From the IMG/VR virus record IMGVR_UViG_3300008262_000125, positions 1 through 39,950 of that record: DNA of 39,950 nucleotides; one strand, 5' to 3'. The notes under the pieces were generated by a model, which saw only the letters and a list, made by a program, of their open reading frames with translations, did no database searches and was not told where the DNA came from. Both the position numbers and the translations under genes were made by a program. Below are positions 2,912 to 5,272 of the stretch, one piece after another (position 1 is the stretch's first letter; every line of letters starts with the position of its first letter). Source of the DNA: a virus.

Positions 2912-2923
2912 CCCCAGTACCGT

Positions 2924-2984
2924 CCGCCACGTGCTACAGTGACGGAGTCACGGGGAGGCCCGTGGCGTCCCTCGCACCTCGACA
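2924..2984 (+). promoter_or_regulatory. Promoter plus 5' hairpin/pseudoknot element, copy A
   Basis: The 15-mer CCGCCACGTGCTACA (2924-2938) is repeated exactly at 3305-3319. It contains an extended -10 (TGCTACAGT; hexamer 2935-2940) with no good -35. About 9 bp downstream lies a 6-bp hairpin, CACGGG (2949-2954), loop GAGG, CCCGTG (2959-2964), then GCACCTCGACA (2974-2984). The loop GAGG can pair with CCTC at 2977-2980, making an H-type pseudoknot. Copy B has a different but compensated stem, which supports a transcribed RNA structure. Confidence 0.55.
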
Positions 2985-2985
2985 A

Positions 2986-3165
2986 ATGAATACATCCCTG
3001 GTCGCGCTGGCCCACACGCTCAGCGCCGTCTCGGACGTCCTCGACGCGTTCGTCGCACTGCGCGACGCCTGCTCTGAGGACGACTGGGACGCGCTGAACG
3101 GCTCGGCTCCGCTGGAACGTCTCCTCGACGCTCTGACGGATCTCGAGGATGCGGCAGCGGAATGA
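2986..3165 (+). CDS. Small acidic helical protein of moron cassette A
   Basis: The 59-residue product is acidic and fully helical in appearance (SLVALAHTLSAVSDVL, then ACSEDDWDAL, ending LTDLEDAAAE), with no cysteines or membrane segment. I do not recognise the family. It lies between promoter copy A and a strong intrinsic terminator, so it forms a self-contained transcription unit, typical of a phage moron expressed from the lysogen. The ATG at 2986 has no Shine-Dalgarno. An in-frame GTG at 2962 lies at the foot of the hairpin with GGAGG only three bases before it, which would add eight residues. The hairpin conservation favours the ATG. Confidence 0.5.
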   Translation: MNTSLVALAHTLSAVSDVLDAFVALRDACSEDDWDALNGSAPLERLLDALTDLEDAAAE

Positions 3166-3171
3166 CCGCCG

Positions 3172-3192
3172 GGCCCTGCGGGGCCTTTTTTT
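3172..3192 (+). terminator. Intrinsic terminator of moron A
   Basis: GGCCC, loop TGCG, GGGCC, followed immediately by seven Ts, starts six bases after the stop codon at 3165. It is a compact rho-independent terminator in plus orientation. Confidence 0.85.
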
Positions 3193-3304
3193 GTGCCCGC
3201 CGCGGGGCGAGGATGCGGACGGGGTCGGCTCCACCCGCAAGGGCGAGCGCCGTGGCCGGGGGCGAGGCCCCGACCTGAAACGGCACCGAAGGCCCCACCA
3301 CGTT

Positions 3305-3359
3305 CCGCCACGTGCTACATTCATGGACGTGGGGGAGGCATCCCCACGGCACCTTGACA
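3305..3359 (+). promoter_or_regulatory. Promoter plus 5' hairpin/pseudoknot element, copy B
   Basis: This is an exact copy of the 15-mer of copy A (3305-3319) with -10 TACATT at 3316-3321. The hairpin is GTGGGG (3329-3334), loop GAGGCAT, CCCCAC (3342-3347), then GCACCTTGACA (3349-3359). Relative to copy A the stem bases change on both arms so that pairing is kept. The loop GAGG still pairs with CCTT (3352-3355) using one G-U pair. Transcription should begin near 3327. Confidence 0.55.
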
Positions 3360-3462
3360 TAGCGGCTTCGGCCGCAGCGGGCGGTCAGCCCGATCTCCGG
3401 TGGTGGTCCATCTCTGGCACCCCACTGACTCCGCCAGGAGTCACCACACACCGGAGATCGTC
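3360..3462 (+). promoter_or_regulatory. Structured leader that buries the ribosome binding site
   Basis: Three further hairpins follow copy B. First, GCGGC-TTCG-GCCGC at 3362-3375 is a UUCG tetraloop with a C-G closing pair. Second, a perfect 12-bp stem joins CGATCTCCGGTG (3391-3402) to CACCGGAGATCG (3449-3460), extended by GTGG/CCAC (3403-3406 with 3444-3447) past one bulged A. Third, inside it, GACTCC-GCCA-GGAGTC lies at 3427-3442. The GGAG Shine-Dalgarno of the next gene (3453-3456) is wholly inside the 12-bp stem. Translation should therefore be off unless the stem is opened. This is a candidate riboswitch, thermosensor or trans-regulated leader; nothing here shows the trigger. Confidence 0.55.
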
Positions 3463-3633
3463 ATGACTGACCAGACCCGCGCCCTCACCTCCACGGGTGA
3501 CGCTGAGATCGACGCGCTGTTCGCCGAGATCGATCAGCTCCTTGAGGAGATGGGCCGCTCTAACGAGCGGCTGCTGGCTCTCGCGCACGAGATGCGCGAC
3601 GTCAGCGCCGAACTCGAAGAGTGGTCCTGTTGA
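3463..3633 (+). CDS. Small coiled-coil protein of moron cassette B
   Basis: The 56-residue acidic product is a likely helical hairpin or coiled coil (EIDALFAEIDQLLEEMG, then NERLLALAHEMRDVSAELEEW) and ends in a single cysteine. No family is recognised. The start ATG has GGAG six bases upstream, the best ribosome binding site of this patch, but that site is sequestered in the leader hairpin. It resembles the moron A product in size and acidity, not in clear sequence. A hairpin follows the gene. The matching promoter element suggests that cassettes A and B are regulated together at transcription, with extra control of B at translation. Confidence 0.6.
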   Translation: MTDQTRALTSTGDAEIDALFAEIDQLLEEMGRSNERLLALAHEMRDVSAELEEWSC

Positions 3634-3639
3634 GGGATC

Positions 3640-3670
3640 TGCCCCGGCCACCGGGGCACTGACTTTTATT
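3640..3670 (+). terminator. Hairpin terminator of moron B
   Basis: TGCCCCGG, loop CCA, CCGGGGCA (3640-3658) is a perfect 8-bp stem seven bases after the stop codon. It is followed by CTGACTTTTATT, so the T tract is displaced by four bases. Confidence 0.6.
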
Positions 3671-3730: not shown

Positions 3731-3919
3731 ATGACCATTCCCTGCATCGCCGCTTGGGCCGTCGCCCTGCTGCTGCTCCCGCTGATCATCCTGCTGTGGG
3801 CCATGGAGACCCAGCAGCAGCGGGCGCGCCGCTGGCGGTCCTACGGCTGGAGCCAGCAGCGGATCGCCGATCGGCTCGGCTGCAGCCGCTCCAGCGTCCG
3901 CCGGTTGCTGGTGGCGTGA
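3731..3919 (+). CDS. Membrane-anchored helix-turn-helix miniprotein
   Basis: In 62 residues this protein joins one transmembrane helix to one DNA-binding-like motif. Residues 3-25 are hydrophobic (IPCIAAWAVALLLLPLIILL). A Gln/Arg-rich linker follows. Residues ~36-59 read YGWSQQRIADRLGCSRSSVR, a clear resolvase/HTH_23-type helix-turn-helix with the S-Q-x-x-I-A-x-x-L-G-x-S-R-S-x-V pattern. AGAGGAA upstream is a good ribosome binding site and fixes the start. The N-in/C-in orientation would depend on the positive linker, which places the HTH in the cytoplasm. I know of no named family with this minimal plan. It could be a membrane-tethered regulator or a superinfection-exclusion peptide; both are inference. 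Confidence 0.6.
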   Translation: MTIPCIAAWAVALLLLPLIILLWAMETQQQRARRWRSYGWSQQRIADRLGCSRSSVRRLLVA

Positions 3920-4579: not shown

Positions 4580-5272
4580 ATGAGCGGAATCGTAGACCGC
4601 ACCGGCCAGCGGTTCGGACGGCTGGTGGTTGTCAAGCTAGCTGCACCCAGGATTCACCCCAATGGGCAGAAGGCGACACGCTGGCTTTGCCACTGCGACT
4701 GCGGGCAGGAAACAGTCGCGGCCGCGGGGAACCTGACGGCTGGCCACACTCAGAGCTGCGGATGTCTAGCCCGCGAAGTGAACAGGGCTGCCAGACTTAC
4801 GCATGGGCGGTCTAACACGCCCGAATACAGGATTTGGCGCGGGATGCTCAACCGCGGCCGGAACCCCAAGGTCGCTAGCTACGCCCTCTACGGGGGGAGA
4901 GGCGTCGCCGTTGTGGAGCGATGGCATTCTTTCAGCGCTTTCCTTGCCGACATGGGCACCCGACCCACGCCTCGTCACAGTCTCGACCGAATTGACAACG
5001 ACAGAGACTACTCACCGGAGAACTGCCGTTGGGCGACTCCAGAACAGCAGGCAAGGAACACAAGGCGAAATACCTGGGTCACATTCCAGGGGGAGCGAAT
5101 GACGTTGGCGGATGCGGCAGAACGCAGTGGCATCACTCAGTCGGTTGTAACGGCTCGGCGCAAACGCGGTTGGCCTGAACAAGACTGGTTCCTCCCTGTC
5201 GGTGCTCGCGGATTAGGGCAGTTCCCTCCTGGGTCCAATGGACGGACGCCCGCCGGGTGGTGCCCTCAGTAA
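4580..5272 (+). CDS. Zinc-ribbon plus HNH-like homing-endonuclease-type protein
   Basis: This 230-residue protein has three parts. Residues 8-65 are a GQRFGRLVV-type domain with a CHCDCG pair (37-41) and CGC at 60-62, a zinc-binding module common in phage free-standing HNH proteins. Residues ~82-165 hold the nuclease-like core with YGGRGVAV, LDRIDNDRDYSPENCRW (135-151) and the following ARN; the DRID and NCRW residues are the family signature. The end (~165-200) looks like a helix-turn-helix that could give target specificity. Codons here are visibly less GC-rich than in the neighbours, which fits recent arrival as a mobile gene. The start has GGGATGAG upstream. Its 3' end overlaps the convergent endolysin gene by seven bases. 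I see no intron around it, so it would be a free-standing endonuclease. Confidence 0.8.
   Translation: MSGIVDRTGQRFGRLVVVKLAAPRIHPNGQKATRWLCHCDCGQETVAAAGNLTAGHTQSCGCLAREVNRAARLTHGRSNTPEYRIWRGMLNRGRNPKVASYALYGGRGVAVVERWHSFSAFLADMGTRPTPRHSLDRIDNDRDYSPENCRWATPEQQARNTRRNTWVTFQGERMTLADAAERSGITQSVVTARRKRGWPEQDWFLPVGARGLGQFPPGSNGRTPAGWCPQ

Follow-up and report, generated by a model that had tools for sequence, protein, structure and literature searches.

BoxA was long regarded as a device of rRNA operons and lambdoid phages, and was later found before suhB and a few other gamma-proteobacterial genes. In the E. coli rrn operons, boxB, boxA and boxC follow promoter P2 directly and recur ahead of the 23S gene (PMC10250234). 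Nus factors also repress suhB and a toxin gene of Citrobacter, acting through a boxA close to the start codon (PMC5725501). For cyanobacteria, the published boxA of the picocyanobacterial 16S-23S spacer is GAACCTTGACAACTGCATAG, the reverse complement of primer Picocya-boxA-R (PMC9769826), while Thermoleptolyngbya has the boxA GAACCTTGAAAA and the D4 sequence CTGCATA (PMC8461337). These two papers, rather than host genomes, are the host boxA reference for all scores reported here. The current study concerns two unrelated small genes of a cyanophage, whose leaders share a hairpin and a boxA-like box behind a putative promoter. We consider rrn-type boxB-boxA antitermination leaders to be the best explanation for this module, and a probable one.

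The analyzed stretch, referred to here as the window, comprises the 39,950 bases of IMGVR_UViG_3300008262_000125 and encodes a large terminase, a lambda-type portal, a capsid protein, a primase-helicase and a methyltransferase. The nearest relative of the terminase belongs to Synechococcus phage S-LBS1 (52.8% over 94%), and on sequence grounds the virus is a picocyanobacterial phage related to S-LBS1. When the integrase was used as a query against genome contigs, no relative was found, and protein queries with the integrase and gene A against viral contigs returned the same virus alone; plasmid searches gave no match. A run of 19 C opens the contig (positions 1-19), possibly as a sequencing or assembly artefact, and a free-standing HNH endonuclease gene (phrog_374) at 4580-5272 lies beside the module region, whose features are as follows.

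815-2602, within the window: serine integrase gene.
2912-2946, plus strand: repeat copy A, a promoter region with the 15-mer at 2924-2938 and an extended -10 (TGC-TACAGT, hexamer 2935-2940); no recognisable -35.
2947-2966, plus strand: hairpin A at the boxB position, GTCACGGG-GAGG-CCCGTGGC, with arms 2947-2954 and 2959-2966.
2974-2985, plus strand: boxA-like box A, GCACCTCGACAA, the top-scoring site of the window, directly adjoining the gene A start codon.
2986-3165, plus strand: gene A, a 59-aa acidic protein with family members on at least eight other phage contigs.
3171-3192, plus strand: intrinsic terminator after gene A.
3293-3327, plus strand: repeat copy B, a promoter region with the 15-mer at 3305-3319 and an extended -10 (TGC-TACATT, hexamer 3316-3321).
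3328-3348, plus strand: hairpin B at the boxB position, CGTGGGG-GAGGCAT-CCCCACG, with arms 3328-3334 and 3342-3348.
3349-3362, plus strand: boxA-like box B, GCACCTTGACATAG, which fits GAACCTTGACA...TAG only with a 6-nt gap (ACTGCA lost).
3463-3633, plus strand: gene B, a 56-aa protein behind the B leader.
3640-3663, plus strand: terminator-like hairpin after gene B.

The 15-mer CCGCCACGTGCTACA, which a preliminary description of this DNA had reported as identical ahead of both genes, is indeed exact at its two positions, occurs nowhere else in the window in exact form and is enclosed in a 35-nt direct repeat of 80% identity. Its designation as a promoter is plausible from the relatives, which carry TACAGT-like -10 hexamers at an equal distance from the hairpin and in some cases a clear -35 (TTGACC or TTGATC), but the window itself gave no match in a consensus sigma-70 promoter scan. 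Transcription would presumably start just 5' of the hairpin, thus placing the hairpin at the 5' end of the transcript. The leader is not an assembly artefact, since two further contigs from other samples (3300008108_000863 and 3300031963_002381) carry the same sequence; an exact search of viral contigs with the 15-mer returned these two and unrelated chance matches, and nothing else. Separate elements were encountered upstream of the promoters in other contigs. In L264, a near-identical element (GAAGAGTTGTGACA or variants) lies ahead of each small-gene module (2060, 2445, 3490 and 3810), approximately 40 nt 5' of the -10, and is likely an operator or activator site, one per module, and in L268 the sequence TTGACCACGGTTGAGGATGGTGTAGGAT is present twice.

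Relatives of the leaders were found by box and core patterns, by alignment of gene B and by a covariance model built from the window leader, and most of them are contigs of uncertain completeness. As a protein query, gene B yielded one diverged homologue, L021, whose leader has retained GCACCTCGACATAGC as well as an extended structure reaching the ATG. Comparison of the 5' module included nine gene-A and ten short gene-B leaders, all 19 of which have the putative promoter, the hairpin and the box, while the genes behind them form two distinct families. The proposal of a common 5' leader module on two unrelated genes is borne out. In both window copies the hairpin stems differ from one another and are compensated, as had been described (the CACGGG/CCCGTG pairing noted earlier is the inner part of the hairpin A stem), and among 300 shuffles of the upstream 60 nt per copy, scores this high arose four times for A and once for B. 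Across the 19 leaders, both partners have changed at several positions of the stem, one of which shows three pair types; this argues that the hairpin is selected as an RNA structure. In L118 and L021, the hairpin beside the box is weak or further off.

These stem changes, together with the strand-fixed order of promoter, hairpin and box, also argue for RNA over a function at the DNA level, in which the repeat would be a recombination joint or an operator for module exchange. The promoter repeats are homogeneous inside one phage and different between phages, as such a function might lead one to expect; even so, we consider it very unlikely. The hairpin loops tell a different story from the stems. 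The preliminary description had proposed that the loop GAGG pairs with the downstream CCTC or CCTT in an H-type pseudoknot, which would then be the regulatory element. Although the 4-bp complementarity is seen in both window copies, these are the only 2 of the 19 leaders that have it, with 3 bp available in 7 of 19. The gene-A loops are GCGA in seven leaders, GAGA in one and GAGG in the window, so that for gene A the pairing with CCTN is possible in the window copy alone, and in one gene-B homologue CAGGA faces CATA. The H-type pseudoknot thus receives almost no credence from us. CsrA-type GGA loops were considered as well and ruled out, as the gene-A loops have no GGA.

Both hairpins are followed by GCACCTYGACA, exactly as described (GCACCTCGACA at 2974-2984 and GCACCTTGACA at 3349-3359), and a module of putative promoter, GC hairpin and box GCACCTNGA(C/A)A recurs across the leaders. 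In 26 related records, the pattern GCACCTNGAMA occurs 25 times and the reversed pattern not once; three of the 25 occurrences are within long open frames and are probably fortuitous. The identity of the box is most apparent in its full-length form. In L264 and L322 this form, GCACCTGGACAACTGCATAG, has 18 of 20 matches to the picocyanobacterial boxA-D4 sequence, the L309 box GATCCTTGAAAACTGAATA has 17 of 19 to the Thermoleptolyngbya boxA plus D4, and L268 and L309 reach 16/20 at the box. At eight of the nine loci tested, one or both of the boxA queries have their highest-scoring site in the leader box. The box scores at least 13/20 in 26 of 32 leaders, the control strings scoring 8-13. The remaining six leaders, window copy B among them, read GCACCT.GACA-TAGC with six D4 bases deleted, a form to which the ungapped boxA scan gives no score. 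Position 7 of the box, a T in rRNA, may be any base in the phage leaders, and position 2 is usually C, not A. Window copy A matches the picocyanobacterial boxA-D4 at 15/20 over 2974-2993, which is within reach of chance (null maximum of 16 in 40 kb). The case for boxA identity rests on the relatives; taken by themselves, the two copies of the window would be insufficient proof. In genome contigs, the box pattern, which represents the short-box type only and leaves hosts possible, gave 106 matches, none with a leader.

Since the box matches the published host boxA and a hairpin followed by boxA, here after a putative promoter, is the order of E. coli rrn leaders and of the cyanobacterial 16S-23S spacer (boxB, boxA and D4), we interpret the module as a ribosomal-type boxB-boxA leader. 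The phage leaders differ from those of rrn in preceding protein genes, in their free position 7, in the loss of six D4 bases in many of them and, at gene A, in a box that runs into the start codon. There are parallels to lambda nutL and nutR as well, namely a phage-borne boxA and hairpin near an early promoter and gene-A loops that are GNRA in eight of nine leaders. However, the short leaders have the hairpin before the box, whereas lambda has boxA before boxB, such that the order of a nut site is absent, and the phage box is of the cyanobacterial rRNA kind. Another account would have the hairpin act solely as a stabiliser of the mRNA 5' end, with the box left behind by captured host ribosomal DNA, either by accident or as a neutral relic. 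The presumed location of the hairpin at the transcript 5' end and its free loop sequence in the gene-B leaders are both compatible with this, but the box has been kept over diverged leaders and genes at a fixed distance from the hairpin and, for gene A, from the ATG, and this account accordingly seems unlikely.

Gene A has no match in Pfam, PHROGs or NCBIfam, and on several contigs its homologues adjoin gene B; the proteins of both genes are short and probably helical. All nine gene-A leaders have exactly 12 nt from box to ATG, and all nine lack a Shine-Dalgarno sequence (in the window, none within 20 nt of the start). The start codon is thus less than 50 nt away from this boxA, a proximity shared with E. 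coli suhB and the Citrobacter ParE-like toxin gene, although the phage box differs from these in abutting an ATG that lacks a Shine-Dalgarno and in belonging to a cyanobacterial host. Because of this abutment and the missing Shine-Dalgarno, Nus binding at gene A should control ribosome access too, and the leader fits suhB-like translation repression. One could go further and regard boxA mainly as a translational operator, upon which the Nus complex would block ribosome loading; the genes would be silent while Nus is plentiful and would come on when rRNA synthesis competes for Nus or falls. The invariant 12 nt and the published boxA repression of suhB and a toxin-antitoxin gene both favor such an operator, whereas the box of gene B lies roughly 100 nt off (105-118 nt ahead of the ATG), beyond the 50 nt of the suhB type, and is followed by a fold of its own. 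We view a mainly translational role as a possibility to be entertained with some reserve, and one which overlaps with antitermination leaders rather than excluding them.

The leader of gene B, a gene with no database match, runs on to position 3462 with a separate conserved fold that was absent from the preliminary description; the copy A leader has no comparable P2-P5 domain. Its parts are the following.

3362-3375, plus strand: P1 hairpin, GCGGC-TTCG-GCCGC, present only in short-box leaders.
3379-3391, plus strand: P2 hairpin, GGGC-GGTCA-GCCC.
3394-3457, plus strand: P3 stem, pairing 3394-3400 to 3451-3457 and 3403-3407 to 3443-3447; the Shine-Dalgarno GGAG (3453-3456) is part of the 3' strand.
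3414-3442, plus strand: P5 pseudoknot, CTGGC (3414-3418) with the loop GCCA (3433-3436), and P4 hairpin, GACTCC (3427-3432) with GGAGTC (3437-3442).

P4 and P5 lie inside P3, P5 pairs YGGC to GCCR in the loop of P4, and the Shine-Dalgarno is 9-10 nt 5' of the ATG. The B leader was found on approximately 30 viral contigs representing 22 distinct cores, in every case ahead of a gene-B homologue save for one at a contig end. P4 is paired in all 22 cores, and three of its positions vary on both sides (C-G/G-C, U-A/C-G and C-G/A-U); a P5 pair is U-A in nine and C-G in 13, and the closing pair of P3 is formed in nine cores (U-A or C-G) and disrupted in the other thirteen. Covariation was judged from these pair types and has few distinct stems behind it; block shuffles over distinct helices (P4, 424/5000; P5, 2543/5000) involve too few distinct stems for significance. 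In silico, the Shine-Dalgarno has an unpaired probability of 0.06, compared with 0.31 in shuffled leaders, and the folding energy of the gene-B leaders has a mean z of -4.1 relative to shuffled sequences. An Rfam 15 covariance-model search returned nothing at the gathering score and unrelated chance matches at permissive E-values, and a known Rfam RNA of the cyanobacterial glutamine or downstream-peptide type was thereby ruled out. The gene-B leader is thus a new folded RNA, which is predicted to sequester the Shine-Dalgarno. It resembles Shine-Dalgarno-sequestering cis-regulatory RNAs and riboswitch platforms in placing this sequence in a long conserved stem over a pseudoknotted hairpin, but it differs from them in having no Rfam match and no known ligand and in being tied to one phage gene family.

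The coding potential of the leaders was a further consideration, as the box would read CAC CTN GAC, or His-Leu-Asp, with its sole freely variable position at the wobble base. A leader peptide translated through the leader and coupled to the gene might also account for the ATGA overlaps seen in the window, where the frame ends at gene B, in the second L264 leader and, for gene A, in the leaders of both L264 and the window. However, no frame is open in all leaders, the frame shifts relative to gene B between relatives and a start codon in this frame is missing from some of the leaders. Such coupling is disfavored for want of a conserved frame, and we deem it highly improbable.

Additional conserved elements were observed in the same gene neighborhoods. 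A second leader RNA of approximately 120 nt, N4-ACACGA...CGA-N4'-AACA..GGCCTGA.TAAGCC..GCCGGTTGGCCCGGC, is found at L272:5375-5540 (minus strand), L398:3001-3114 and L399:3001-3053, with two-sided changes in its N4 stem (GCGC/GCGC, GAGC/GCTC and GATC/GATC). It occurs ahead of gene B in about ten contigs, ahead of the HTH membrane gene gp41 of the isolated phage S-CBS3 and ahead of the unrelated gp37 of S-CBS1. The small protein encoded at 3731-3919 of the window, with a membrane segment and an HTH, corresponds to S-CBS3 gp41, and many relatives have also conserved it behind gene B. A further conserved sequence, GCCACAAGCCRGATA..GCGCCCCGGATTCTCCGC..GGACA(A/C)GAGA, lies 5' of a small HTH gene or a gp37-type leader (L266:3190-3250, L264:2645-2705 and L399:2912-2970).

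If the two leaders are antitermination leaders of the rrn type, several steps can be envisaged. Each transcript would open with a GC-rich hairpin occupying the boxB position, and a picocyanobacterial boxA would come next. Host NusB-S10 (NusE) would presumably bind boxA in the nascent RNA and stay with RNA polymerase, and the bound Nus factors may then mark the small phage genes for rRNA-like transcription. At gene B, P2, P3 and P4 together with the pseudoknot P5 would hide the Shine-Dalgarno inside P3, and translation would therefore need the fold to be opened. Two outcomes are possible and not mutually exclusive, a modified polymerase resistant to terminators and a suhB-like repression of translation; antitermination and translational control are not distinguishable from sequence. 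Cyanobacteria are not known to have Rho, and without it the classical target of antitermination, and the classical reason for it, would be missing.

Tentatively, these phages may have taken the antitermination signal of host ribosomal operons, in a host group not known to have Rho. Expression of their small genes would then depend on how much Nus factor is available and, through it, on the production of host ribosomes, and one of the genes would add a further control, a new pseudoknot RNA family that hides the Shine-Dalgarno. BoxB-boxA leaders on small cyanophage genes would extend the use of boxA to another phylum. In addition, this small DNA fragment offers two concrete RNA elements, the putative boxB-boxA leader and the gene-B leader fold, and they would provide a first regulatory handle on two recurrent families of small phage proteins without an assigned function.
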